From the NCBI GenBank assembly GCA_022448425.1, contig JAKVCY010000011.1, forward strand, positions 1-64,000: a stretch of 64,000 nt of DNA, read 5' to 3'. Made by a program: the position numbers and the translations under genes. Within the stretch, counting starts at the first letter, position 1. Every line of letters begins with the position of its first letter. Below are positions 2-18,061 of the stretch, one piece after another. Origin of the DNA: Thalassotalea sp. Its GTDB lineage: Bacteria; Pseudomonadota; Gammaproteobacteria; Enterobacterales; Alteromonadaceae. Below the pieces are notes generated by a model. The model was not told where the DNA came from. It worked only from the letters and a program-made list of their open reading frames with translations, and made no database searches.

Positions 2-124
2 CATCGCAGTATGAATGGTTTTACGCTTAATTTAATGGCCGGCTTGGTGGCTTATTGTCTTAAAGAAAACAAGCCATCCCTTAATATTAGTGACGTTGAG
101 CGCAATGCTATGGTTGTTGCTTAA
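2..124 (+). mobile_element. C-terminal end of a transposase (IS982-like), truncated by window start; element end probably near 137
   Basis: Frame from base 2 reads HRSMNGFTLNLMAGLVAYCLKENKPSLNISDVERNAMVVA*, resembling IS982-type transposase C-termini (RHRS...N...GL.AY..K..KPS). Followed by ctggggt at 131-137, after which sulfatase coding sequence (minus strand) begins. Confidence 0.5.
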
Positions 125-137
125 ACCGATCTGGGGT

Positions 138-1335
138 TAAAATATTCTCACCATCGAGTTTAGGTTGTTCTATCAAAAGTTTGGTATTGGTAGCAGCCAT
201 GATTGTTGGGTATATATCAGAGGTTGACATAGGAGTAGAAATAGAGATACCTGATTTGAATTTTTGAGGCCATTCAATGAGGGCAGGTACTCGAATACCG
301 CCTTCTTTTAGTTCTGCTTTTTTACCAGAAAATGGACCTGTAGAATTAAAATTGTGTATATAAGAAGGGCCATTGTCAGACTTAAACCACAGAATAGTAT
401 TATCAGCGACTCCACTTTGCCTCAAGTGCTTCCTTAGCCTTGCTATTTGTCTATCCATTGCAGTAATAGAGCCATAAAAGTGCTGAGCTTGTATTGGGTG
501 CTCTTTATATTGCTGACGATCACTATTGCCTGCTACGAGGGGAGTGTGTGGTGTGTGAAACCAAATAACAGCTAAGAAAGGGTTGTTCTTATCTATTTGC
601 TTATCAATAAACTGAATAGCTCTATCCATGATTATTTCTGAATCATCACCTGTTAACCATTCGTCGACAATGCTTCTTTCACCTGTCCAATAATGATCTC
701 TCCACCTAACACCTCCATTCTTTTGACCAAGTGCAGTAGGTTCAGTTTGAAGGTGCCTATAGTCTTCTGTACCGTAATCTCCGCCTAAATAATAATAAGG
801 GTTGTACGTTGGCATCATTGATTCTGTTGAAAAGCTCTCGTCAAAGCCATTTTCCCAAGGGGGGAATAATGTGCAGGAACTGCCAAATCACCTTTAAAGT
901 AACTTTGGTTAATTGTTTTACTTAACTCTCCAACATGCTATTTTCCAAAGTGGCCTGTTTTATAGCCATTGAACTTTAACGCTTCAGCTATTGTTATCTC
1001 ACTGTTTGGTAAATGTCCTGAACCGGCCCACTCAATACCATATCTGAAGGGTGGCGACCTGTTAAAACACTTCCTCGTGTTGGTGAACAGACAGGTGATG
1101 CCGCGTAGAACCTGTCGAGCTTTATTGACTCCGTCGCCATTTTGTCAAGGGAAGGGGTCTTGATTATATCGTTACCATTATATGCTACATCACCCCATCC
1201 TTGGTCATCTGACATTAGCAATATAACGTTAGGCTTGTTGCCTAAATCACTGTTATAGGCATAGCTTGAAAGGCTAAGACAAAAGATAGTAAGGCTTGTT
1301 GATAGGGCTAAAAGTCGTGAATTAATTTTCTTCAT
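138..1335 (-). pseudogene. Sulfatase (arylsulfatase-type), degenerate and 3'-truncated
   Basis: N-terminal piece has [15 protein letters not shown] and the catalytic CSPTR motif; C-terminal piece has FLAVIWFHTPHTP and KSDNGP...GGIRVPALIEWP. Frame broken near 1047-1052, TAG at 938-940 in GHFGK*HVG, and frame break near 855-865. Confidence 0.85.
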
Positions 1336-1361
1336 ATCAAGATAGTATTTATACAGAGGTG

Positions 1362-1375
1362 TACCTGTTATACCA
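1362..1375. promoter_or_regulatory. Putative NanR-type operator (TACCTGTTATACCA) upstream of sulfatase pseudogene
   Basis: Shared motif found at five intergenic places in this island only. Confidence 0.5.
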
Positions 1376-1705
1376 ATAGGTTGTATTGAAAGCAATAACA
1401 GAAAGTTAGCTTGTTCTTTTATATAGAATTCATCAGAAGTTTATAGGCGTTGAATCTTTATACGTTAATCATTGGAGTAACTTTTTACTATCATCTTATA
1501 CGGCTTTACTTATGCAGCCAAAAGTATACAGGGCTTTAATAATAGGCATCAAACGCTTATTTTTATGACTTGATCTCCAAGATTATTAACGAAATGAACC
1601 AGTGTTATTACATTGTCTATATCTTTATAAAGTCTGCGCTATTTAAAAGCATTCGTACAAAATCTGATAAATCACTTTGACATTATGAATTATCGGGTGG
1701 TATGG

Positions 1706-1829: not shown

Positions 1830-4682
1830 TTGGAAACATATACATTGAAAAGTAATAACAATAAAAAGTTTATGAAAACAATGCTCGCTATTGGTATTTC
1901 AGCTGCTGCTACTAATGCAGTAGCTTTTGCACCGGAACAAGCAGTACAGGAAGCAGATATCGAAAAGATCATAGTGACAGGTTCGCACATTCGAAAAGGG
2001 GACTTTGAATCTGCTTCACCAATTAAAGTTATGGACTCACAAGACATAGAGGGGGTCGGCGCTGTTAATATTGGTGATTTACTTGCTAAGGTGCCATCAA
2101 TTGTTGGTGATACAACCTCAGCAAGCTCAAATATTAGTGGCCAAGATTCTGGTTTGAATACAGTAGCATTGCGGAATCTAGGCTCTTCACGAACTTTGGT
2201 TTTAGTTGATGGTAAGCGTTATGTTTCTGGTATGTCGGTTGGTTCGGGCTATGGCGTTGATTTAAATACAATTCCAACAACGATGATCCAACGAGTTGAA
2301 GTCTTAACTGGTGGTCAATCGGCAGCATATGGTTCTGATGCTGTAGCCGGTGTTGTAAACATTATTATGAAAAAGAACTTTGATGGCGTGGCTTTTAATG
2401 CAAGAACCGGTCAAAGTAGTAGAGGCGATAAAAAGAACTCAGATATCGAATTTACAGTAGGTAAGAACTTCGACGAAGGTAATGCTTGGTTTTCATTTGG
2501 TTATTCAGACGACGATGGTTTAATGGCAAGTGATCGCGATTACGCTAGAGTGCACAAAAGCGCTGTTGATAATGATGGCGATGGTCTGCTTGATACAGCT
2601 CAATTCGTTGGTTCTTCTCATATTTTGAGCGGTCGTATTGGTAACTATAAAGGGGACGGTACTCCATTTGTTCGTACTGCCGATGTTGAAACTTCTGATG
2701 CGTTTAACTTCCATGAATACCGTTCTATGTTAACACCTCTTAAGCGTACTTTTGCAGCGAGCGGTTTATCTTTAGAGTTAAATGACGTTTCAAGAGTGAA
2801 CTTCACAGCAAACTATGCCAGAGTAGAATCTAGAGCCCGTTTTGAGCCAATCCCATTAGATACACGAAATAATATCTTTAAGCTAGATAAAGGTGGTACA
2901 ACAGGCATTGAGATAGCAACACACCCTTGGTTTGCAGGTACAGACCTTGGCAACGCTTTATTAGCAGATGGTATCACTCATTTAGATGACGTGAGCTTAA
3001 CGTTCAGACGATTGTACGAGTTTGGTGATCGTGGTGCTGAGAACGTCCGTGATACCTTCCGTATAGCAGGTGAATATGAGTATGATATTAACGATTATAA
3101 CTACTTAACTGTTAGTGCGACATATGGTGTAACAGATCAAAACCAAACTAACCACGGCGACATTAACTTAGATCGTGCTAGATATGCGCTGGATGTTGAA
3201 GATGATGGTTATGGTGGATATCAATGTGCTGACGAAATTGCCCGTATTAACGGTTGTGTAGTATTTAATCCATTCTCATTAAATGGTATCTCACCGGAAG
3301 CTGTACAATACTTGGCTGCTGACACAAATATTGTTGGTTCAATCGAACAATTTGTATTGTCCTCAGTTGTTGCTGGTGAGCTTGATTACTCGTTAAGCTC
3401 AAGTCTGGACAATATCGGTTTTGCAGCAGGTGTTGAATATCGTGAAGAAAAGGGTCAAGAAACACCCGATCCATTACGTCAAGCCGGGATTGTTCGTGGT
3501 GCAGCGATTGCTAAAACAAAAGGTTCATTTGACGTAATCGACATCTTTGCTGAGGTTCATGTTCCCCTGTTAGAGCAATTAAACTTAAATGCTGCAGTAC
3601 GTGTTGGTGACTACTCATCGGTAGGCCGTACAATGAACTGGACTCTAGGTTTAGATGCACCACTAACAGATTCATTTAGGCTCCGTGGTGCTGTTGCAAC
3701 AGCTGTTAGGGCACCGAATGTGAGTGATCTATTTGCTGGTGGTACTGCTACAGCAGCGGTGGTTACTGACCCATGTAATGGTGTTGACGCATCTGGTTCG
3801 ACAAATATTGATATTAACTGTCGCTCGATAAGTGCAATTCAAAACCGTATTGATAGTGATGGTGCGTTTATACTAACGCAGGTAGAGAGTCAAAATACGT
3901 CTGGCTTACTGAGTGGCTCTGAAGATGTTAATGAAGAAAAAGCGGACACGATTACGCTTGGCGCCGTCTATACACCTGAGAGTATTCAAGGGCTACAAAT
4001 GTCTATCGATTACTACGATATTGAAATTGACGACGCTATTGCTAAAACAGATCGTACGGTTATTCTGATTCGTTGTTACTCTGTAGACCCTAGTCAATTT
4101 GACCCAGAGTGTGGCGGTAAAGTAAGACGTGATGGCCGCTCTGGTGCTGCTCTTGAAGTAAATGCTGCTTCAGGTAACGAGAACATTATTGCCACTAGTG
4201 GTATTGACATTGATGTGTCGTACGAAACTACACTAGCAGATGGTTCGTTATATGTTGGTTTTGCGGCTAACTACTTAGATAAATACGATATTACAGGTAA
4301 AGAGTCTGGTGACACCCAGAACTTAGCCGGTGAGGTACTATTCCCTGAACTTCGTTTTAACGTAAATGCTTCTTATACTTATGATGATTTCAATGTTTAT
4401 TGGCAACTACGTTACTGGGATGCTACTAAAGATCGTAATGACAATACTATCATGACAGAAGAGTTAAATTCAGTTGGCTCTCAAATGTATAACGATATTC
4501 GTTTCAGCTATACATTCAATGAAAACACAAATGCATATTTTGGTATTTCTAATGTATTCGATAAGCAACCACCATTGCTTACTGCGAATCATAAATACCA
4601 ACAACAGGGTACTTTAACAAATGGTACCGCATTTGACCTAACAGGCCGTGCGTTCTATGCAGGCATCAAGCTAAATTTCTAA
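1830..4682 (+). CDS. TonB-dependent receptor (probable sialic acid/amino sugar substrate uptake)
   Basis: Plug domain VALRNLGSSRTLVLVDGKRYV...VEVLTGGQSAAYGSDAVAGVVNIIMKK and a beta-barrel ending in aromatic/Phe (GIKLNF). Annotated start is TTG at 1830 after AGGAGAT; ATG at 1872 is an alternative. Confidence 0.92.
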   Translation: METYTLKSNNNKKFMKTMLAIGISAAATNAVAFAPEQAVQEADIEKIIVTGSHIRKGDFESASPIKVMDSQDIEGVGAVNIGDLLAKVPSIVGDTTSASSNISGQDSGLNTVALRNLGSSRTLVLVDGKRYVSGMSVGSGYGVDLNTIPTTMIQRVEVLTGGQSAAYGSDAVAGVVNIIMKKNFDGVAFNARTGQSSRGDKKNSDIEFTVGKNFDEGNAWFSFGYSDDDGLMASDRDYARVHKSAVDNDGDGLLDTAQFVGSSHILSGRIGNYKGDGTPFVRTADVETSDAFNFHEYRSMLTPLKRTFAASGLSLELNDVSRVNFTANYARVESRARFEPIPLDTRNNIFKLDKGGTTGIEIATHPWFAGTDLGNALLADGITHLDDVSLTFRRLYEFGDRGAENVRDTFRIAGEYEYDINDYNYLTVSATYGVTDQNQTNHGDINLDRARYALDVEDDGYGGYQCADEIARINGCVVFNPFSLNGISPEAVQYLAADTNIVGSIEQFVLSSVVAGELDYSLSSSLDNIGFAAGVEYREEKGQETPDPLRQAGIVRGAAIAKTKGSFDVIDIFAEVHVPLLEQLNLNAAVRVGDYSSVGRTMNWTLGLDAPLTDSFRLRGAVATAVRAPNVSDLFAGGTATAAVVTDPCNGVDASGSTNIDINCRSISAIQNRIDSDGAFILTQVESQNTSGLLSGSEDVNEEKADTITLGAVYTPESIQGLQMSIDYYDIEIDDAIAKTDRTVILIRCYSVDPSQFDPECGGKVRRDGRSGAALEVNAASGNENIIATSGIDIDVSYETTLADGSLYVGFAANYLDKYDITGKESGDTQNLAGEVLFPELRFNVNASYTYDDFNVYWQLRYWDATKDRNDNTIMTEELNSVGSQMYNDIRFSYTFNENTNAYFGISNVFDKQPPLLTANHKYQQQGTLTNGTAFDLTGRAFYAGIKLNF

Positions 4683-4698: not shown

Positions 4699-4730
4699 AA
4701 AAATAGAGGTTGCTTTGCAGCCTCTATTTT
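4699..4730. terminator. Hairpin AAAATAGAGGTTGC-TTT-GCAGCCTCTATTTT after the TonB receptor
   Basis: Inverted repeat with T-tract just downstream of the stop codon. Confidence 0.6.
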
Positions 4731-4759
4731 CAATTGTATTAATAGCAGAGTTTTTATTA

Positions 4760-5905
4760 ATGGTTACAACTTTAATCGCAGACTATCTATTTGATGGTCA
4801 ACAGCTGCTAGAAAATCAGCCCATAAGTTTTGATGGCAATGAAATTGTTGCATTGGATGTCATTGAAGGCGCTGATGTTCAAATTTTCGAAGGTATTTTA
4901 GTTCCTGGGTTTATCGATGTTCAGGTTAATGGTGGTGGTGGGGTGTTGTTCAATCATGATACCAGTCTCCAAACGTTAGAAAAAATGGTGCAAGCTCACG
5001 CCAAGTTTGGTTCAACTAGCTTGTTGCCCACGCTAATTACTAGCGATATTAATACGTTACATCAAGCCTCAAATACGATAAGTAAGGCGATTTTGGCTGA
5101 AACTCCTGGGATCATAGGTGTTCACTTTGAAGGGCCTCATCTAAGTACTGTAAAAAAAGGCATTCATAGTAGCAGTCATATTAGAAAACTTTCTGATGAG
5201 GAGTTAGCTATTTATTGTCGCAATGATTTAGGCATAAAAATAGTGACGTTAGCTCCTGAGAACGTGAGTGTTGAGGATATTCAAACGCTTGTGGCACACG
5301 ATGTTCGTGTTTGTTTAGGTCACTCAAACGCAAGTTTTGAACAAACGTTAAGTGCATTGGACGCTGGAGCTACAGGGTTTACACATTTATTTAACGCAAT
5401 GTCGGGGCTGGATTCGAGAGAGCCTAATATGGTTGGCGCAGCGTTATATGATGCTCAGAGTTGGTATGGTTTGATTCTTGACGGACATCACGTTCATCCT
5501 GCAACAGCAAAAGTAGCCTACAAAGCCAAATCTTCAGGGAAGATGATGCTGGTGTCAGATGCTATGTCAACCATTGGTAGTGAACAGTCAGCCTTCGAGT
5601 TTGATGGACATGAAATAACACTAGTGGGTGACAAGTTAGCAAGTAAGACAGGGCAGCTTGCGGGGTCTGCACTAGATATGATTACAGCTGTTAACAATGC
5701 CAAATCGATGCTGAATATTTCGCTCGAAGAGTCATTGCGAATGGCTAGTTTGTACCCCACTCAATTCTTAAATAGCAGCCAGTACGGTTGCCTCAAAGTT
5801 GGAAATAGAGCCAACTTTACTCTTATATCAAATGAGAAAAATTGCCCTCATAAGGTTACTTCTACGTGGATAGAGGGCGAACATGTATTTAAAGCAGAGG
5901 CTTAA
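4760..5905 (+). CDS. nagA: N-acetylglucosamine-6-phosphate deacetylase
   Basis: PGFIDVQVNGGGGVLFN, GVHFEGPHLS, GHSNASFEQ, THLFNAMSG and LVSDAMSTIG motifs. Start at MVTTLIADYLFDG (4760) fits better than 4715. Confidence 0.92.
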   Translation: MVTTLIADYLFDGQQLLENQPISFDGNEIVALDVIEGADVQIFEGILVPGFIDVQVNGGGGVLFNHDTSLQTLEKMVQAHAKFGSTSLLPTLITSDINTLHQASNTISKAILAETPGIIGVHFEGPHLSTVKKGIHSSSHIRKLSDEELAIYCRNDLGIKIVTLAPENVSVEDIQTLVAHDVRVCLGHSNASFEQTLSALDAGATGFTHLFNAMSGLDSREPNMVGAALYDAQSWYGLILDGHHVHPATAKVAYKAKSSGKMMLVSDAMSTIGSEQSAFEFDGHEITLVGDKLASKTGQLAGSALDMITAVNNAKSMLNISLEESLRMASLYPTQFLNSSQYGCLKVGNRANFTLISNEKNCPHKVTSTWIEGEHVFKAEA

Positions 5906-5906
5906 A

Positions 5907-6827
5907 ATGAAAAAGATAAATGGTTTAATTAATGCACCGTTCACAGCATTTCATGAAGACGGTTCGATTAATTTAGCACCTATTGCACAATATGCTGCGA
6001 CGTTGCGCAAAAATGGTGTGTGTGGCGTTTTCGTAAATGGTTCATCGGGTGAAGGCCACTTGATGACAGATGAAGAAAGAAAAGCCTGTGCAAAAGCATG
6101 GGTAGACGCTTCAGAAGAAGACTTCATGGTGATAGTTCATGTTGGCACTAATAGTGTAAAAGCCAGTCAGCAACTAGCACAACATGCTTTAGAAATTGGC
6201 GCCGATGCCATTAGTGTGATGGGGCCAACTTTTCCGAAAATTACTCGTATAGAAGAGTTAGTTAAGTACTGTGAAGAGGTTGCTCAAGTAGCACCTTCAT
6301 TGCCGTTTTATTATTACCATATTCCGGCATTCACAGGGGTTAATCTATCGATGCTTGAATTACTTGAGGCTGTCGACGGTAGAATTAATAATTTTGCGGG
6401 TATTAAATATACGTTTGAGAGTTTATACGAGTATACGCAGTGTCGCCGATACGCAAATGGCAAGTTTGACATGTTGCATGGGCAAGATGAAACGCTACTT
6501 CCTTCATTAGCGTTTGGTGGTGCTACAGGTTGTATCGGTGGAACATTTAACTATGCTGCTGGTTTATATATCGATATTAGAGAAGCTTTTGCTGAAGGGG
6601 ATTTGGAAAAGGCACAAGAGCTACAATATAAATCATTGGATCTAATTGATGTTATTTGTAGATACCGAGGGAATATCGTCGGTGGCAAACAAATTATGAA
6701 GTTGATTGGTTTAGATTTGGGGGCAAATCGAACCCCATTTCAGAATTTGACAGCTGAAGAGGCTAAGGCAATGAAGTCTGAATTAGATGCCATCGACTTT
6801 CAGTTATTTGCTAATAAACTAGCTTAG
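5907..6827 (+). CDS. nanA: N-acetylneuraminate lyase (DHDPS/NAL superfamily)
   Basis: INGLINAPFTAFHEDGSIN, GVFVNGSSGEGHLMTDEERK, FYYYHIPAFTGV, FAGIKYTF and GQDETLLPSLAFGGATGCIGGTFNY; genomic context with nanE/nanK/nagA. Confidence 0.9.
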   Translation: MKKINGLINAPFTAFHEDGSINLAPIAQYAATLRKNGVCGVFVNGSSGEGHLMTDEERKACAKAWVDASEEDFMVIVHVGTNSVKASQQLAQHALEIGADAISVMGPTFPKITRIEELVKYCEEVAQVAPSLPFYYYHIPAFTGVNLSMLELLEAVDGRINNFAGIKYTFESLYEYTQCRRYANGKFDMLHGQDETLLPSLAFGGATGCIGGTFNYAAGLYIDIREAFAEGDLEKAQELQYKSLDLIDVICRYRGNIVGGKQIMKLIGLDLGANRTPFQNLTAEEAKAMKSELDAIDFQLFANKLA

Positions 6828-6845
6828 TATTGAAGGGAGCTATGA

Positions 6846-8343
6846 ATGAGAAACCTTTCCATGGTCATCGTTCTGTTGTTAGGCCTCATGATGGCTCCCA
6901 AGCCAAGGATGGTCTAAACCTCAGCATAAACGGCCAAATATCGTCTTTATCGCCATTGATGACCTTAATGATTGGGTCGGTTACCTAGGAGGCCATCCAG
7001 ATACAAAAACGCCAAATTTAGATAGGTTAACAGCTAGAGGCGTAGCGTTTACAAACGCATTCACAGTATCTCCTATTTGTGGTCCATCTAGAGCTAGTGT
7101 TCTTACAGGAATGAGGCCAGAGACAACGGGCATTTATCATAATACAGGGATGTACAAAGACTACGTCCCCAATGCCATCGCCTTACCAAAGTTTCTAATC
7201 AATAACGGCTACCATGTCATGGGCGCCGGTAAAATTAATCATGCAATGGGGATGGTCGTACCCGAAAATTATCACGAATATGGTCCTGATGCCGGAGCAA
7301 TCGGTGGTCCTTTTACATGGCAAGAATTAAGTGTATCGACTAAAGCAAAAGGGCAACGCGAAGACATCTTAGGAAAGAGTAATGCTGTAAAGAGTGGCAT
7401 ATTACGCGATATTTATCCTGGAAAGATAATTAAACGAAGAAGCCTAGAAGCTACTTTACCACTGAACGGAATCGATAATAGGTTAGATCGTCCACTAAAC
7501 GGGTATAACACTTTTGATTGGGGGCCTGTTTCAGTTAAAGGTACGGAAATGCCTGACGGAAAAATGGCTACTTGGGCAATCGAAAAATTAACAGAAAATT
7601 ATGATAAGCCGTTTTTCCTAGGCGTGGGTTTTTATAGGCCACACCAACCGTTTTATGGGCCAGAGAAGTATTTCGAACCATTCAAAAATAAGTTGTCGTT
7701 ACCTGCCGTTATGGAAAGAGACTTAGCAGATTTACCTCAGGTTGCTAAACAGTATGCGCATTACCATTGGTCAGGAAGTTTTGCTAGAGTTACTGAATAT
7801 AAAGCTTGGGAAGACGCTGTCAGAGGATATTTAGCTTCAATTCACTTTGTTGATGCACAGTTGGGAAAAATTGTTGATGCGCTGGATGATAGTTCCTACG
7901 CCAACAATACACTAATCGTCCTTTGGAGCGATCATGGCTGGGAGCTGGGTGAAAAGGAATACTGGGGTAAACACTCGCCATGGCAAGGATCTATCAAAGT
8001 GCCCTTTATCATAGTACCACCTAAAAACAGTAGGTTTACCAAAGGAGAAAATGATAGCTTTGTGAGTCTAATAGATATATATCCGACAATAGCGTATTAT
8101 ATGAGTGTCGATGTTCCGAATTACCTAGAAGGATCTTCGTTAAAAAGCGTGATAGAAGGACGTTCTGAAAAAGTAAGAGACTATAGTCTGACAACTTTGA
8201 ACCGCGCATCTTATGTTATTGTTAAAGGTAATTGGAAGTACATTCATTACTACGATGGAAGTGAAGAGCTTTACAATCTACATGAAGATCCAAATGAATG
8301 ACGAAACTTATCCGCTCCTAAATACCAAGCAATCAAGCATTAA
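6846..8343 (+). pseudogene. Sulfatase (iduronate-2-sulfatase-like family), frameshifted and terminally degraded
   Basis: Signal-peptide-like MRNLSMVIVLLLGLMMA at 6846 is in a different frame from RPNIVFIAIDDLNDWVGYLGGHPDTKTPNLDRL..CGPSRASVLTG. 7111-8301 carries the open core. TGA at 8299-8301 (DPNE*RNLSAPKYQAIKH) and TAA at 8341-8343 interrupt the C-terminus. Confidence 0.75.
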
Positions 8344-8648: not shown

Positions 8649-9455
8649 TTAAGCGTTGTGATAGTAGCCAAACTTTTCGTTTAGCTTTCTATTTTGAGAG
8701 TCGGCCCATTGATAGTATTCAGTATCTGATAATAGTGATGCGGCTTCTTTGTCCAATACAACAATAGCATTTTCATGCATCTGCAAAGCTGAAGCTGGGC
8801 AGTGTGCTGATAATGGACCTGTAATCATGTTGTTGACCGCTTCTGCTTTGTTCTTTCCAGTTGCCATCAACAACACGTATTTAGCATCAGTTATTGTTCC
8901 AATTCCCATTGTCATGGCTTTATCTGGTTGATATTCATCTTCACCAAATAGTCGACTATTATCTTTTAACGTTTGTTGAGTTAGCGTTTTTATACGAGTT
9001 CTTGATGCTAGGCTTGAAGAAGGTTCATTGAACCCTATATGACCATTTGCACCTATTCCTAGAATCTGTAAATCGATACCCCCTGAATCTTTGATCAACC
9101 GTTCGTAATTTAAGCCTTGCTGTCTTGGATTTTGTGTTTCACTGCAAGTAGGTAAATAGGTATTACTTTTTTGAATGTTCACTTTGTTAAAGAGGTGGTA
9201 ATTCATAAAAGAACGGTAACTTTGCGGAGAGTCTGGTTGAATTTGAAAGTACTCGTCCAGATTGAAGGTTACTGTTTTTGCAAAACAAAGGGCGTCTTGT
9301 TCATGCCTTGCGACAAGTTTCGCGTATAGCTCTATAGGAGTGCTTCCCGTGGCAAGACCCAAGACTGCGTTAGGTTTTTGTCTTAGTAGTGTATCTACCC
9401 AATCGGCAGCATGGTTAGCTACCTCTTCTGGGGTTTCAAAAATTACAATTTGCAT
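8649..9455 (-). CDS. nagB: Glucosamine-6-phosphate deaminase
   Basis: VLGLATGSTPIELYAKLV, TFNLDEYFQI, LQILGIGANGHIGFNEP. Confidence 0.96.
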   Translation of the reverse strand: MQIVIFETPEEVANHAADWVDTLLRQKPNAVLGLATGSTPIELYAKLVARHEQDALCFAKTVTFNLDEYFQIQPDSPQSYRSFMNYHLFNKVNIQKSNTYLPTCSETQNPRQQGLNYERLIKDSGGIDLQILGIGANGHIGFNEPSSSLASRTRIKTLTQQTLKDNSRLFGEDEYQPDKAMTMGIGTITDAKYVLLMATGKNKAEAVNNMITGPLSAHCPASALQMHENAIVVLDKEAASLLSDTEYYQWADSQNRKLNEKFGYYHNA

Positions 9456-9457
9456 TT

Positions 9458-10327
9458 TTAGCTCTTATATAGTTGAGAGTACAGACTCACACCAATAAGA
9501 TCAGCGTGAGGCCCACACATAGCCAACGAAACGTTGGTTTGATAAATATTAGGTAGCTGTTCAAACTTATCCTTTACTAAATTAAATAGTTCGGGAGAAC
9601 TTCCGACGCTGCCACCAATTACAATTTCTTCAGCACCTGTTATCGCTTTAATATTTGCTATTAAATCAACGAGTGAACTAGCACTGTTCTCTATAATTTT
9701 TGAAATTTCAGGGTGCTTAAAGTAAAGTTCAAATACCTGCTTACAAGTGACTGGTTTACATAATACAGCCGAGGCATGTTTAGCTATTGCGGTGCCCGAA
9801 GCGATGGCTTCGATACAGTTTATTCGACCACAGTGGCAAAGGTAGTGTATTGCATCTGCGGAGTGCACACTTGTGTGCCCAACATGAGCACAAAACCCAT
9901 CATTTGAGGTGACTAGTTGTCCATTCTGAACGATTCCACCACCTACCCCTGTTGACACTGTTAAATAGACTAGTGTCTTAAGTGATTTATTTGTTTTTCT
10001 TGCTTGATATTCTGCCCAAGCAGCAGCTGCTGCATCATTAATAATGGTTACAGGTAAGCCAAAAGTTCTTTCTATGTTTTGCTTTAGAGGTAGTTCCGTT
10101 TTTATCGAAAGAAAGTTTACCGTCTCTTTACCAACTAATCCTGTGCAAGCTATCGCTACAGAATCTGCTTGCTCTAACCAGGTCTCACATAAATCAAAAA
10201 GGATGTCTGACAGTGCGCCTATATTTGTATGCACACAAGACTTTGTCTTTTTGTATTCGATTATTTGAGTTCCATCAACAAGGGCTGCTGATATTTTTGT
10301 TCCACCAACGTCAATAGCAATTTTCAT
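9458..10327 (-). CDS. nanK: ROK-family N-acetylmannosamine kinase
   Basis: MKIAIDVGGTKISAALVDG, NDAAAAAWAEYQ, VSTGVGGGIVQNGQLV and zinc motif CHCGRINCIEAIASGTAI; adjacent to nanE. Confidence 0.88.
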   Translation of the reverse strand: MKIAIDVGGTKISAALVDGTQIIEYKKTKSCVHTNIGALSDILFDLCETWLEQADSVAIACTGLVGKETVNFLSIKTELPLKQNIERTFGLPVTIINDAAAAAWAEYQARKTNKSLKTLVYLTVSTGVGGGIVQNGQLVTSNDGFCAHVGHTSVHSADAIHYLCHCGRINCIEAIASGTAIAKHASAVLCKPVTCKQVFELYFKHPEISKIIENSASSLVDLIANIKAITGAEEIVIGGSVGSSPELFNLVKDKFEQLPNIYQTNVSLAMCGPHADLIGVSLYSQLYKS

Positions 10328-10330
10328 GGA

Positions 10331-11035
10331 TTAAGCCTGTGCAGCTTCATTTATGCTGGTTGCAAACCAACTAGCTATATGTTCAATTCTAGTGATGGCT
10401 GAACCAACAGTCACCGAAAGAGCACCTAAAGCAATTGCTTTTGCCGCTCTTTCCGGAGAGTTATACCTTCCTTCAGCTATAACATTTAGTCCTCGCTTAA
10501 CCCACATATCAACAAGCTCATAATCTGGCTCATCTGGTGTATTTGATAAATCTAAGTATCCAGACATTGTGCTACCAATGAAACTACACCCATTTTTAGC
10601 CAACATGATACCTGTTTCAAAATCAGCACAGTCGGCCATAGCAATACAACCTGACTCATGCACAGCGTTAAGTAAGTCTAACATTGAGGTAGGGCGTTTT
10701 CTGTCAGTACCATCAAATGCGATGATGCTCGCTCCAGCTTGTGCTAGTGCTTTAACGTCTTCAATAAAAGGGGTTATGCGTATATCACTGTCTTCTAGGT
10801 CTCGTTTAACGATACCGACAATTGGCACGCTAACAACTTTGGCAACCGCTTCCACATTTTTAACACCTTCAATCCTTAGTCCTTTTGCTCCACCATCAAT
10901 AGCAGCAACTGCCATGGCAACAACATGTTCAACTTTGTCCATCGGGCCATTATCTACAGGCTGACAAGATGCGATTAATGAGTTTTTTAGTTCATGAATT
11001 AATTTATTTTCTAAGGCAGTATTGCACTTGGACAT
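10331..11035 (-). CDS. nanE: N-acetylmannosamine-6-phosphate 2-epimerase
   Basis: LIASCQPVDNGPMDKVEHVVAMAVAAIDGGAKGLRIEG, PIVGIVKRD, FIGSTMSGY, VIAEGRYNSPERAAKAIALGALSVTVGSAITR. Confidence 0.94.
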   Translation of the reverse strand: MSKCNTALENKLIHELKNSLIASCQPVDNGPMDKVEHVVAMAVAAIDGGAKGLRIEGVKNVEAVAKVVSVPIVGIVKRDLEDSDIRITPFIEDVKALAQAGASIIAFDGTDRKRPTSMLDLLNAVHESGCIAMADCADFETGIMLAKNGCSFIGSTMSGYLDLSNTPDEPDYELVDMWVKRGLNVIAEGRYNSPERAAKAIALGALSVTVGSAITRIEHIASWFATSINEAAQA

Positions 11036-11039
11036 TATG

Positions 11040-13550
11040 TTATTCCCGAGTAATTGCTTTGTGTAATTGAGGATCTTTACGCATGGTGTATAAAGTTAAA
11101 CCATCAAGATCTTTGTTATCAGATTTGAAGACTAAGCTGGCGAAGTAACCAACAAACAAACAAGAGACAATGCCTATTGTTGCGTATAAGTATCCGTTGG
11201 CCCAGCCAAATTGCCATGCAGAAATCATCGCGCCCACACCACAGAGAATACCTACGATTGCTCCCTTGGCATTAGCTCTTTTAGTCAGCGCACCTAATAC
11301 ATATAGACCACCTAACGCTCCCATGAACATACCTATAACTTTAAAATAGGCGTTCATTAATGATCTAATTTCCGGGTTTATAAATATTAAGCCAGCTAAC
11401 GTACCTAAAGTTCCCATTAAAAAAGTTAACCATCGGGCAGCGCTCATGTATCCTTTTTCCGATTTTATTAGCTTAAATGGACGGATAAAATCTGTTACTA
11501 GGGTAGTGGCAATCGAATTCATACTCGTAGATACGGTAGATTGAGCAGCGGAAAATATGCCTGCCACAATAAGTCCAGCTATGCCGACGGGGAGTTCAGT
11601 AGCAATGAACATTGGGAATATTTGGTCTATTTGAATAGTTGGATCTAATTTTTCTGGTTGAACTTGATAGAAAACATAAAGGCCAGTTCCAATACAAAAG
11701 AACAACAAAGCCCCTGGTACTGCTAGAACGGCGTTGGCCCAAATAGACTTCTTTGCAGCTTCTGGGTCGGTCGTTACCATATAACGTTGAACGATTGCCT
11801 GATCTGCAGTGTAGCTAGAAATATTTTGACCAATACCACCAATAACAATTACCCAAATGGCAAGCGTTGTTATGCTATCTAAACTGAAATCGACTTGTGC
11901 CAAGGTGAATTTATTGTCCGAAATACCAACTTGGACGAACTCGCTGAAACCTCCCTCAAGCCCAAGTATGATAGTAATAAAACAAACGAAAGCACCAATA
12001 AGAAGGACCAACGTTTGAATAGTGTCTGTCCATATAACGGCTTCTATGCCGCCTAAGGTGCAATAGATAAGACACAAAACTCCCATTATCAGAACACTTT
12101 CACTAGCTGTCAGAGGAGTGACAGCAGAAAGTGCGAGAGCTGTAAGTGCCATAACAATGCCCATTCTTCCAACATGGAATAAAGTGAATAAGCCACTGGC
12201 AAATAAGCGCACGCTCATATTGAATCTTTTTGAAAGGTATTCGTAAGCGCTTGTTGCATTAATTTGCCTAAAGAATGGCATTGCTACATAAATAGCTATA
12301 GGTGCGACTACAATTATCATCCATATGCCAACTAGCAGTAACCAATCGGTTTGATAGACAACCGCTGGCAATGCTACATATGTTAAGGAGCTTAACATGG
12401 TTGCGTAGATAGAGCAGGCAGCAGCCCACCATGGAATAGATTGTCCTCCTCTGAAATAATCGTCTGTATTTTTATTCTTAAATACAAAAAACAGTCCGAT
12501 TGTAACCATCAGTAGAAGGTAGACAACCAATACCGCCATGTTACTAAATCCAAAATGCTTTTCAGGCTGAACTAGGGAGCCTACCAGTAACTGTGTATGA
12601 TTATTTCCATCGTGTCTGAGTTGGTAAATTCGGCTGCCCGCAATAATACTATTCCCGAAATCAATATTTTGAGGTAACTCTTTTACTGCTGCACTTTCGT
12701 ATATCGCCCAGCTCTCTGTTATGGCATTTAGAGAATATATGTCAGTTGAGTTTGTCGTCGCTAATATGTGGGACTGACCAAAAGCTGCTATCGATGTAAC
12801 TTCTGTATTGACTAACTGATTTTTAACCAAATCCCATGCAGATGAAGGAGTGTTTGGTGAGTATTTCCATAACTTATTTATTTCATCACCACGTGCTGTT
12901 TGATGAGTAACTAGTGAATATAGCTTTGCTCCTTTGCCATTGTTTTGGCTTGTTAGTGAGATGTCACTAATGTTACCAAGAGCATTATTTGGTGCGGGTA
13001 GGTGCTGCCATGTTGGCTGAGTTTCTTGTAATAATGAATTTGTCAGTTGTAATCGTTGAAACTCTATACGATTATTTTGCGAAAACAATATATATAGGTA
13101 GCCTCCAACAACCTCTGCATCAAAATTCTTTGTTTTGCTGGGGAGGTTTGTCAGGTAAGCGGTTTCAATTGTTTGACGAGATTCGTTCCAGCTTAGTACC
13201 TTGATATTTGCTTCAACTAATCCGTTATCTATACCACCTAGAAGTAGCGTTTTATCTTTAAATTTAATGAATTTTGCGCCAATCCAAGTAGACAAGCTTT
13301 CCTTTATGGATAAAGGTTGTAGTTTGTCACTATTATTCGTTAGTAGAGCAATTTGTTTATCGCCATGTGCACCAGTAGTTGAAATAAATACTTTATTGTC
13401 TATTTCAAATAGAAAATCACTGCGATTAAGTGTCGCAGCTTCACTGTCGACGATATTGGGCTCCCATAACACTGAGATGTCTGCGTTTGCAGACTTTGAA
13501 AACACACAAGCAGAGAATATGTAAACCACAATTATTATATTTTTGAACAT
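11040..13550 (-). CDS. Kelch-like (NanM/N-acetylneuraminate epimerase-like) beta-propeller fused to sodium:solute symporter (SSS), probable sialic acid transporter
   Basis: N-terminal signal peptide and ~330 aa beta-propeller-like region, then SSS domain (NTDDYFRGGQSIPWWAAACSIYATMLSSLTYVALPA, YEYLSKRFNMSVRLFAS, GGIEAVIWTDTIQTLVLL). Confidence 0.88.
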   Translation of the reverse strand: MFKNIIIVVYIFSACVFSKSANADISVLWEPNIVDSEAATLNRSDFLFEIDNKVFISTTGAHGDKQIALLTNNSDKLQPLSIKESLSTWIGAKFIKFKDKTLLLGGIDNGLVEANIKVLSWNESRQTIETAYLTNLPSKTKNFDAEVVGGYLYILFSQNNRIEFQRLQLTNSLLQETQPTWQHLPAPNNALGNISDISLTSQNNGKGAKLYSLVTHQTARGDEINKLWKYSPNTPSSAWDLVKNQLVNTEVTSIAAFGQSHILATTNSTDIYSLNAITESWAIYESAAVKELPQNIDFGNSIIAGSRIYQLRHDGNNHTQLLVGSLVQPEKHFGFSNMAVLVVYLLLMVTIGLFFVFKNKNTDDYFRGGQSIPWWAAACSIYATMLSSLTYVALPAVVYQTDWLLLVGIWMIIVVAPIAIYVAMPFFRQINATSAYEYLSKRFNMSVRLFASGLFTLFHVGRMGIVMALTALALSAVTPLTASESVLIMGVLCLIYCTLGGIEAVIWTDTIQTLVLLIGAFVCFITIILGLEGGFSEFVQVGISDNKFTLAQVDFSLDSITTLAIWVIVIGGIGQNISSYTADQAIVQRYMVTTDPEAAKKSIWANAVLAVPGALLFFCIGTGLYVFYQVQPEKLDPTIQIDQIFPMFIATELPVGIAGLIVAGIFSAAQSTVSTSMNSIATTLVTDFIRPFKLIKSEKGYMSAARWLTFLMGTLGTLAGLIFINPEIRSLMNAYFKVIGMFMGALGGLYVLGALTKRANAKGAIVGILCGVGAMISAWQFGWANGYLYATIGIVSCLFVGYFASLVFKSDNKDLDGLTLYTMRKDPQLHKAITRE

Positions 13551-13580
13551 CTAGAATCACATGGTAATGTTTTGTGCTGT

Positions 13581-13595
13581 ATACCTGTTATACCA
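13581..13595. promoter_or_regulatory. Putative NanR-type operator (ATACCTGTTATACCA) upstream of the symporter-nanE-nanK-nagB operon
   Basis: About 30 bp upstream of the symporter start codon; matches the other sites. Confidence 0.55.
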
Positions 13596-13716: not shown

Positions 13717-14424
13717 TTATTCAGTGTAGTACTGGTCAAAAACGTAATCAATATGGTTTGATAAATGTTTATCAGCACCCTCCACATCTCCTTTCTTGAT
13801 GCACTCAAATATGGCAACATGATCCTTATAGCTGCGTTCATTTAAATCGCTTTTTGTGGTTTTTAATTGCCTTGAATCTATCACCCAGTCGACTAGAGCT
13901 TGATGAATTGCAAGGAATATTGGATTACCTGGTATAGAAGCAATTACACGGTGAAAGTTAATATCGGTCTTTTTAAATTGATTATCGTTTTCCACAGCTT
14001 TACTGTTTAATTCTAATGCTTCTTCTAGCTCTTTAATTTGTTCTTCAGTGGCGTGCTCGGCTGCATATCTAACTAGACTCGACTCAAAGAATTTACGCAA
14101 TTGATCGAAGTATTTGAGGCCGTTGGGTTGCGATAAAAAGTCCTTAGACATACCTGATAACTCTGAAATAATAGTGTCCGCTGAAGGTCGAGTTACCCTC
14201 GTTCTTTCACCACTACTTATTTTCACCAGCCCTTTTCTCGCAAGTGCTGAAAGAGCGTCTCTTATTGAGGGCCTTCCAACACCAAAAGCAGCCATAAGAT
14301 CTCTCTCTGATGGTAAAGCGTCCCCTTCAGCTATTTCACCTTGGCGAATCATTAACTCAAGTTCTTCTTCGACTGTTTGTGATAACTTCTTCCTTTCAAC
14401 AGGTCTTTTGATTGTAATCGACAT
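13717..14424 (-). CDS. nanR: GntR/FadR-family transcriptional regulator, probable NanR
   Basis: [49 protein letters not shown] wHTH plus FCD C-terminal domain; located in the nan island. Confidence 0.8.
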
Positions 14425-14465: not shown

Positions 14466-14488
14466 TATTATACCAATATGGTATAATA
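14466..14488. promoter_or_regulatory. Perfect palindrome TATTATACCA-ATA-TGGTATAATA upstream of the regulator (probable autoregulatory operator)
   Basis: Two exact 10-bp arms with 3-bp spacer, ~40 bp upstream of the regulator start. Confidence 0.65.
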
Positions 14489-14713
14489 TGTATATTTAAG
14501 ATTTAGGTTTACGTAACATTTACATCTGTCTGTTTCAAAGGACGATGTAAATGTTATGGTGAATACCTTGCAATATGGCTTGTAAGCTGAAGATTTTTTC
14601 GGGTATTTAATATGAACGAATAGGTTGAATTTAGTTAATGCTACGTTATTCAGTAATCTCAATGCTAGCGGCTATCTAGTAATATAAGTATTTGATTTTA
14701 CTGTTTTGCCCAT

Positions 14714-14728
14714 TATACTGTTATACCA
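14714..14728. promoter_or_regulatory. Putative NanR-type operator (TATACTGTTATACCA) upstream of alpha/beta hydrolase
   Basis: Near match to the 13581-13595 site, ~35 bp upstream of the hydrolase start. Confidence 0.5.
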
Positions 14729-14760: not shown

Positions 14761-15564
14761 ATGAAAATAATTAGATATGGGGCTGACTCGCAGCAATATG
14801 GTCAGCTGTATAATCCTTCGATAGTGAACAAAAAGCCTGTTGTGATTGTTATCCATGGTGGCTATTGGAAAGATAATCACAGTTTAGACACTTACCCAAC
14901 TAAATATATTGTAGAGTATCTACTGGGGTTCCCTGTTGCTGTCTGGAATCTTGAGTATCGTAGGATGAATACGTTTGGTGATAATGAAGTAGCGCCTTAT
15001 CCTGCTATTTTTCGAGATGTAATGGAAGGTGTCGATGTGTTGGCACAATATGCTGACAGTGAGATGCTTGATTTAAATAGAGTATTAATCATAGGGCACT
15101 CGGCAGGTGGACATTTAGCTACATGGGCGGCAAGTCGACATTTGTTACCTACAAGTTGTGAACTTTATCGAAGAAAAGCGCAAAAGGTATCTGGCGTGAT
15201 TTCTATCGCGGGTATTTTAGACTTGTGGCGAGAATGCGATATTGAGCAACCTGAACAAATTATAAAATTACTCGGTGGAACACAACAAGAGTTTCCAAAG
15301 AGGTATAATTTGGCAAGCCCTAAAGCGCTTAGGCCAGATGATGTAGATATTACAATAGTTCATGGTTTGAAAGACGACGTTGTTAAATTTAATCAAGCTC
15401 TTAGCTATTGTGAGGGCGCTGGTGGCAATGTTAGCTATATTAGTATCAAAGGTGCCGACCATTTTGGCATGTTACCTATTACACAAAGCTATACTAAAGG
15501 GTGGCAGTTGGTAAAGCCTTTAATAAAACAAAAGGTTGTAGAGTTAACTAACATGGAACGTTAA
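14761..15564 (+). CDS. Alpha/beta hydrolase (esterase/lipase-like)
   Basis: VVIVIHGGYWKDN, nucleophile elbow GHSAGGHLA, IVHGLKDDVV, GADHFGM. Internal ATG at 14761 is the probable start. Confidence 0.8.
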   Translation: MKIIRYGADSQQYGQLYNPSIVNKKPVVIVIHGGYWKDNHSLDTYPTKYIVEYLLGFPVAVWNLEYRRMNTFGDNEVAPYPAIFRDVMEGVDVLAQYADSEMLDLNRVLIIGHSAGGHLATWAASRHLLPTSCELYRRKAQKVSGVISIAGILDLWRECDIEQPEQIIKLLGGTQQEFPKRYNLASPKALRPDDVDITIVHGLKDDVVKFNQALSYCEGAGGNVSYISIKGADHFGMLPITQSYTKGWQLVKPLIKQKVVELTNMER

Positions 15565-15898: not shown

Positions 15899-18061
15899 AT
15901 GCGGGTATCTATTTGCTTATTCGCTATTCTAATTCTCGCGTCAGATACTCAGGCGTAATTAAATAAACATCAAAAATATGTATCCGCTAAGCAATGTATT
16001 AGCTGCCACCAGGAACAACATGATGATTGGCGGTTATCAGGTCATGCTTTCTCAATGGCAAAAGCCGATAAAGAATCCATTAAAGGTAACTTTGACTATC
16101 AACAAGTCGAACACTATGAACAAAATGTACTGTTTTATAGCGAGGGAGGCAGTTATTTTGTGAACATAAATTATGGAGAAAATAAAGAAAATTTAACTAT
16201 AAAGTACACTTTTGGAAATTATCCGCTGCAACAATATATTGTTGAAACAAGTAAAGGTAGATTTCAAATATTACCATTTGCGTGGGACAGCCGACCCCTC
16301 GATGAAGGCGGACAAAGATGGTTCCATAGCTATGAACAAGAGAATATTACCCTGAATGATCGTCTACATTAGCGACAGCCATTGCAAAATTGGAATGGTA
16401 TGTGTGCAGACTGCCACTCTGATGGGCTAATTAGAAACTACAACGCAGACCAAAATACCTTTAATACTAAATTTTCGCATATAAATGTTAGTTGTTTATC
16501 CTGTCATAGCGTAAAGCCTGAACACGAAACAAAACAGAGCGCAGCTAATCACCGGCGAGCAACGATAGAACCTATATGCAATTGACTACGAGCAATTGGA
16601 AGTCAAACTGCACACTGGAGCGGGCCTAAGAGAAATAATCAGTTCATGGAAACCTGTTTTTCATGCCATTCGATCAGAGAGCCCTTGACTGACGGTTTTG
16701 AGCCCAACGAGCCTTTTTTAGATCAGTTTTCTCCTCAGCTGATTACGCCAAACCTATACCATGCCGATGGGCAGATCAAAGAAGAGGTATATGTGTATGG
16801 CTCCTTTCTGCAAAGCAAAATGTATCAGTCTCAAGTAAACTGTCTTGACTGTCATGATAAACACACCTATACACTCAAAGTTGAGGGGAATGCTCTCTGC
16901 CTTCAGTGCCATAGCGCACTCGTTTTTGACACAGCTAAACACCACGGGCACAAAAAGGGTAATACTGGTGCTCAATGTGTTAATTGCCACATGCCTGAAA
17001 CTCGTTATATGGGTGTTGATGATAGACGAGACTATAGTTTTTCAATACCGCGCCCCCATTTATCTGCTGAATTTAATACCCCTAACGCTTGCTCTACTTG
17101 TCATCAGTCATCATCTTATGAAACATTGAGCAGCGCTATTAAAACTTGGCACGGTGAGCCTAAAAAAATAGCGGATAACCATTATAACTTGATTAAGTTG
17201 AATGCTGGTCAAGCTATAACCTTGGCACAGCATTTAGCTATTATTGCTGATGAAACGATAAATGTAATTAATAGAGCCACAGCATTGCAGCGCATTGGCA
17301 GCACAACTACGGTGCTTTCGGGAAATAGTCTTTCGCAGTACTTTGTTAATCAGGAGCCACTATTAAGGCTGGCTGCAGCGCGAATCGGGGGAGGGCTGAA
17401 TGATAAGGATAGGCTTGAGTACTTGCCTAAACTTTTAGGCGATCAATATAGAGCGATTCGCATAGCAGCAGCTCGTAGTCTATTGGTGGCAGGAAGCGAC
17501 ATCACCAGCCACGCCAGTTTTCGAAAGGCGTTTAGTGAACTGCTGTCATTTAATGATGTTAATGCTTGGCGCGGTGAAGGGCGACTTAATCAAGCAATGA
17601 TGCATTTATCAAATCAGAATGAGAGTAAAGCGGAGGTAGCATTACTTAGTGCAATAGATATAGATCCGTATTTTGAAGCTGCCTATGTAAATTTAGCGAG
17701 TTTGTATCAATTACAGCTCAAAGAGGAGCTGGTAGCACAAGTTCTTCTTAAAGGTTTAAAAAACGTTACTCAATCACATAACATTCTTTATTCTATGGGC
17801 TTACATCAAGTACGAATAAAAAATATTGATGCAGCGATTCGTTTGTTTAGTCAATCGATGCAGTTGGCACTTGAAATCTCTCGTTATACATACACGTATG
17901 TCCTTGCATTGGATACATCAGGACGCAGTGAAGAAGCATTGGCGATATTAAAATCGGTAATTTTAAACTATCAAGATAAAGCACAACTCAAAGAGTTAGG
18001 TCGATACTTGTCTAAGAAAGTTAATAATAAAGCTGAATTTATATGGTTTTCAAATTTATAA
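15899..18061 (+). pseudogene. Octaheme cytochrome c with C-terminal TPR region, interrupted by in-frame stop codons
   Basis: One continuous frame with eight CxxCH motifs (CISCH, CADCH, CLSCH, CFSCH, CLDCH, CLQCH, CVNCH, CSTCH), interrupted by TAA 15956-15958, TAG 16370-16372 and TGA 16583-16585; longest intact piece 16646-18061. Confidence 0.8.

Follow-up and report, generated by a model that had tools for sequence, protein, structure and literature searches.

A NanR-Linked Alpha/Beta Hydrolase as a Candidate Sialate O-Acylesterase of Marine Gammaproteobacteria

Introduction

Sialic acid is a sugar present in the mucus of animals and on their cells. Its acylated forms withstand sialidases and lyases, both of which are hindered by 4-O-acyl groups, and the way in which bacteria take the acyl groups off decides who can eat acylated sialic acids. 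NanS, the periplasmic 9-O-acetylesterase of Escherichia coli, is a member of the NanR-controlled sialoregulon and has an SGNH fold (Pfam SASA), and the known bacterial sialate O-acetylesterases such as NanS work before uptake (PMC10017367). The alpha/beta hydrolase encoded in the window, by which we mean the whole 64,000-nucleotide stretch of Thalassotalea sp. DNA that was analyzed, is likewise predicted to be a regulon member and is proposed to share the chemistry of NanS, namely the de-O-acylation of sialic acid, but it differs from NanS in fold and family and has no signal peptide.

Pneumococcal EstA (SPD_0534) has the alpha/beta-hydrolase fold and, to our knowledge, is not located in a nan operon. 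This serine esterase, which is of the tributyrin type and not of the NanS type, frees acetate from bovine submaxillary mucin and increases the release of sialic acid by neuraminidase (PMC5352144). The statement that sialate O-acetylesterases are SGNH-type, made in an earlier sequence-only reading of the locus, is overstated in view of the de-acetylation of sialylated mucin by EstA (PMC5352144). By description EstA can be likened to the window hydrolase, but as a broad tributyrin esterase it differs from the role proposed for the hydrolase.

The fold, the layout of the catalytic triad and the HGG oxyanion motif of the hydrolase are those of the BD-FAE/GHSAG esterases (the EstDZ2 group, the Bacteroides GH43-CE esterase 6mly, and the gut esterases 6tkx and 6xyc), and the GHSAG nucleophile motif of EstDZ2 is also common to it. 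However, the solved structures of the BD-FAE type are about 15-26% identical to the hydrolase and act on other esters, and these esterases, unlike the window hydrolase, are not known from sialic acid clusters. A similar fold and triad occur in kynurenine formamidases (Drosophila 4e11 and the animal arylformamidases), for which an esterase side activity has been reported; 4e11 is 18% identical to the hydrolase in a structural alignment, but most carriers of the hydrolase lack the tryptophan dioxygenase that makes the formamidase substrate. Shewanella glacialimarina grows on Neu5Ac, and its nan cluster has been described in a paper whose text names no hydrolase or esterase (PMC8519357); a study of Shewanella regulons lists NanR for one strain (PMC3223726). 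A search of the literature found neither a sialic acid lactonase nor a description or function of this hydrolase.

The Hydrolase and Its Predicted Fold

The hydrolase gene (14761-15564, plus strand) is an uninterrupted open reading frame that runs from an ATG at 14761 to a stop at 15564 and encodes 267 residues with no internal stop, and its start is backed by the relatives, in which similarity begins at residues 4-7. The protein carries HGGYWKD at residues 32-38 and, as had been pointed out from the sequence alone, GHSAGGHLA at residues 112-120. Its identification as an alpha/beta hydrolase is borne out by a match to the Pfam family BD-FAE (PF20434; 96.5 bits, gathering score 26.8) and by matches to several general alpha/beta-hydrolase models of Pfam. 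In the NCBIfam scan no specific equivalog exceeded its cut-off, and the NCBI annotation of the hydrolase on a Pseudoalteromonas replicon reads merely "alpha/beta hydrolase." Because the Pfam scan gave no match to SASA, the SGNH-type family, membership of the NanS/SIAE family was rejected.

The catalytic residues are the nucleophile Ser114 (in GHSAGG), Asp205 and His234, with HGGYW (residues 32-36) as the oxyanion motif. All three are invariant in the 13-member nan clade described below, and the serine and the histidine are invariant in every outgroup row of the alignment as well. The AlphaFold model is a confident alpha/beta-hydrolase fold (pLDDT 91.7, pTM 0.92) that matches solved esterases at a TM of about 0.7-0.8, and alignment and model together give the hydrolase the triad and fold of the BD-FAE family. 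The best solved structural matches are carbohydrate or carboxyl esterases (6xyc, 6tkx, 6nkf, 6mly, and 5aoa), and the nearest solved chain by profile, 9x6a, is labelled just carboxylesterase. The Drosophila kynurenine formamidase 4e11, which has profile similarity to the hydrolase (E 2.7e-6), is at rank 30 among the structural matches. HGGYW and GHSAG also mark the kynurenine formamidase/BD-FAE group, a point overlooked in the sequence-only reading, and therefore the motif alone does not indicate a sialate esterase. Because no hydrophobic signal sequence was seen at the N-terminus of the window hydrolase or of its aligned relatives, the enzyme would be expected to act in the cytoplasm.

Organization of the nan Cluster

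The hydrolase is surrounded by a complete nan (sialic acid catabolic) gene set. The divergently arranged neighbor (13717-14424, minus strand), correctly read at the outset as the regulator, is nanR, which encodes a FadR/GntR-type sialic acid regulator with Pfam GntR and FCD domains that scores 334.7 bits against the NCBIfam model "transcriptional regulator NanR" (NF003011; cut-off 260). Also on the minus strand are genes for a sodium:solute symporter (11040-13550; Pfam SSF at 365-771), the N-acetylmannosamine-6-phosphate epimerase NanE (10331-11035; Pfam NanE, 261.6 bits), the ROK-family N-acetylmannosamine kinase NanK (9458-10327; best match NF003461, 241 bits, below the cut-off of 283) and the glucosamine-6-phosphate deaminase NagB (8649-9455; TIGR00502, above cut-off). 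The N-terminal extension of the symporter, about 330 residues long, is taken as a NanM-like mutarotase domain on a weak match to the mutarotase family (19.2 bits, below cut-off), and the fusion is kept in relatives. The plus strand encodes a TonB-dependent outer-membrane receptor (1830-4682), recognized from its translation and conserved in the clusters of relatives, the N-acetylglucosamine-6-phosphate deacetylase NagA (4715-5905; Pfam Amidohydro_1, 56-65% identity to cluster relatives) and a nanA-type lyase (5883-6827) assigned by Pfam DHDPS, by position and by similarity to the lyases of relatives. Lyases of two types are found among otherwise matching nan clusters: that of the window is about 40% identical to those of most related clusters and 71-73% identical to those of genomes G742 and G126.

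Two sulfatase genes, both apparently interrupted, are located in or next to the cluster. The one at 108-1395 (minus strand) is split over two frames, and a NanR-like site with one mismatch (1360-1374) shortly upstream of it hints that sulfated sialic acids or mucins may be eaten. In the other (6800-8301, plus strand), the signal-peptide-like start is in a different frame from the CGPSR motif. A multihaem cytochrome/TPR gene (16055-18061) also seems interrupted, and the three cases together suggest indel or base errors of the assembly, or gene decay.

The Putative Operator Upstream of the Hydrolase

NanR of E. coli binds GGTATA repeats of defined spacing, and a single repeat is bound poorly (PMC8012715). 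A weight-matrix scan and the upstream regions of relatives place NanR-type half-sites, TATAC-TGTTATACC (TATACTGTTATACC), at 14714-14727, 33 bp before the ATG of the hydrolase. The sequence-only reading had put a NanR-like site about 35 bp upstream and called it the same putative operator; the kind of site agrees with our result, but the window site is one base shorter than the TGTACCTRTTATACC of the relatives, none of which shares the gap. Because several open reading frames of the assembly look broken, the base could have been lost through an error of assembly. The matrix was trained on the sites of relatives with the window site left out. In an ungapped scan of the 64 kb the hydrolase site was not among the top matches; when one missing base was allowed, a gap introduced after the window site had been seen, it ranked first (23.2 bits, the next match having 13.4). 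A possible -10 hexamer, TATACT (14714-14719), coincides with part of the site, and a promoter-like match spans 14692-14719, such matches being no commoner than in shuffles.

Sequence matches elsewhere in the cluster are an exact GGTATAACAGGTATA at 13580-13594 (minus strand), the NanR operator of the nanM-symporter (SSS) gene, and a palindromic NanR-type site, ATTATACCAATATGGTATAAT, in front of nanR (14467-14487); a NanR-like site (1707-1721) also precedes the TonB-dependent receptor gene. NanR-type sites with at most three mismatches number 7 against 1.5 expected, a count reached in no shuffle. By itself the hexamer GGTATA is not informative (27 observed, 22 expected). In nine relatives, pattern search found TGTACCTRTTATACC or near variants upstream of the hydrolase, and in genome G692 the site GGCATACCTATCATACC was recognized by eye. 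A GGTATA-type operator was thereby recognized upstream of the hydrolase in 11 of the 11 genomes with a FadR-type NanR, the window copy being found and counted only with the gap allowed. These operators agree with the earlier assignment to the NanR regulon; judged from sequence, the hydrolase is very probably a member of it, and NanR would repress its gene.

Distribution and Linkage to nan Genes

Five carriers were found in 296 genomes of the order (the genome of the window and four others at 48-51% identity), and NanR adjoins the hydrolase in all five. When 84,980 species genomes were scanned, carriers turned up among uncultured Alteromonadaceae and in Colwellia, Shewanella, Pseudoalteromonas, and Vibrio sinensis, each with the hydrolase within a nan cluster, and searches of the genus Shewanella and of the Vibrionaceae added three Shewanella and one Vibrio in which the gene is again in nan clusters. 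In a maximum-likelihood tree of 47 proteins, 13 nan-linked sequences, including that of the window, fall on one side of a 100/99 branch, and all 13 sit among nan genes, the neighbors looked for being nanE, nanK, nanA, and a transporter. NanE is present in 9 and the hydrolase in 6 of 118 Shewanella genomes, and all six carriers have NanE (about 2.5e-8, hypergeometric, not corrected for relatedness). The co-occurrence with nan genes by which the sequence-only reading proposed to be judged is thus found in 13 of 13 clade members and 6 of 6 Shewanella carriers, and marine bacteria that eat sialic acid often carry the hydrolase next to the control gene of the pathway. On the annotated Pseudoalteromonas replicon, "transcriptional regulator NanR" and the hydrolase are arranged as in the window. 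A DUF4862 protein encoded between nanR and the hydrolase in Pseudoalteromonas (L096:10850-11827 and L032:8866-9876) is an uncharacterized candidate for the same sialic acid pathway.

The wider hydrolase family is promiscuous and spans many phyla outside nan clusters, and the neighborhoods of the non-nan outgroup homologues revealed no shared function. The occurrence of family members in unrelated contexts would suit a general esterase that rides along near nanR with no role in the pathway; however, operator and linkage are conserved over Alteromonadaceae, Colwellia, Shewanella, Pseudoalteromonas, and Vibrio at 35-53% identity, which makes such a passenger very improbable. The gene is absent from four otherwise similar nan clusters (L085, L086, L087, and L094) and is therefore accessory, serving a subset of substrates or niches.

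The regulator is a FadR-type NanR beside the hydrolase in 11 of the 13 cases and an unrelated RpiR-type protein in two Vibrio clusters, where the hydrolase gene follows nanA in one and diverges from the regulator in the other. As the gene is retained in both of these Vibrio clusters with an RpiR-type regulator in charge, its nan linkage outlasts regulator change. The Vibrio clusters comprise this regulator, NanE, a YhcH-like protein, an MFS transporter, a YjhC-like oxidoreductase, and a sialidase. They bear on the idea that the hydrolase acts on acylated sugars of mucin or marine glycans other than sialic acid, such as acetylated HexNAc, its co-regulation being due to the joint arrival of the substrates. 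Its closest solved relatives (6xyc, 6tkx, and 6mly) are indeed carbohydrate esterases for other sugars, and the window cluster has sulfatase genes, one with a NanR-like site, but no sulfatase is seen in the hydrolase-bearing Vibrio clusters, which seem to serve (anhydro)sialic acid alone, and we regard a non-sialic substrate as quite unlikely.

Companion genes were compared in nine hydrolase-bearing genomes. Tryptophan 2,3-dioxygenase (PF03301) is missing in seven of them, including every tested Shewanella, Vibrio, Colwellia, and Pseudoalteromonas. The window's own assembly has three such genes (contigs C2, C32, and C106), and the related genome G135 has one. That the hydrolase is a kynurenine formamidase (arylformamidase) with a coincidental nan neighborhood would accord with those three genes and with the resemblance of its motifs and fold to 4e11, but the absence of the dioxygenase from most carriers led us to reject this as a general role, and with every clade member in a nan cluster it is hardly credible. 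NanS-type SASA-family esterases are missing in eight of the same nine genomes, which therefore have room for another sialate esterase. A GH33-type sialidase is present in 11 of 13 carrier genomes, adjoining the hydrolase in several, and in 2 of 4 non-carriers, a sample too small for an argument from co-occurrence. Family searches did not detect a BNR_2 sialidase in the window's own genome (an assembly about 93% complete), nor was a sialidase detected in the Colwellia carrier genome.

Proposed Function

An esterase role, the central suggestion of the sequence-only reading, is supported indirectly: it is favored by the match of the predicted fold and the Ser-Asp-His residues to carbohydrate and carboxyl esterases, and by the lack of SASA esterases in eight of nine carriers. 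Of the single readings of the hydrolase, sialate O-acylesterase is the strongest, with chances that we consider even, and the sequence does not fix the substrate. Imported Neu5Ac would presumably lift repression by NanR. Once sialic acid has come in by way of the outer-membrane receptor and the sodium symporter, the hydrolase, as a serine esterase using the usual Ser-Asp-His route in the cytoplasm, would strip O-acyl groups, most likely acetyl, from it. Alternatively, it may remove O-acyl groups from ManNAc once the lyase has set this sugar free. Because C6 of ManNAc comes from C9 of sialic acid, a 9-O-acyl group ends on O6 of ManNAc, the position that NanK must phosphorylate, and an esterase would be needed to free it. 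With an esterase in the cytoplasm, the importer would also have to admit acylated sialic acid, whereas E. coli NanT is believed not to take up Neu5,9Ac2 (PMC10017367).

The evidence from nan linkage would serve equally for a hydrolase of sialic acid catabolism that cleaves another bond, either a lactone (1,4 or 1,7) or, as an amidase, an N-acyl group (N-glycolyl or N-formyl). Formamidase 4e11 is among the structural relatives, and related formamidases have been reported to cleave both esters and amides (PMC5171882). Nevertheless, most clusters already have an amide hydrolase gene, nagA, that serves the 6-phosphate stage, and the literature gave no support for a lactonase; such an activity is unlikely, but should be kept in mind.

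For the sialate O-acylesterase, we tentatively propose, somewhat short of an even chance, a dedicated cytoplasmic family of the alpha/beta-hydrolase fold in marine Gammaproteobacteria, the intracellular counterpart of the periplasmic SGNH-type NanS. A conserved NanR-linked esterase that has a different fold and acts after import, not before it, would offer a second way of removing acyl groups and a new specificity. If such a family exists, direct import of acylated sialic acids by the NanM-symporter would follow, and the sugars imported might include marine forms (4-O-acetyl and lactyl) that have few known esterases.
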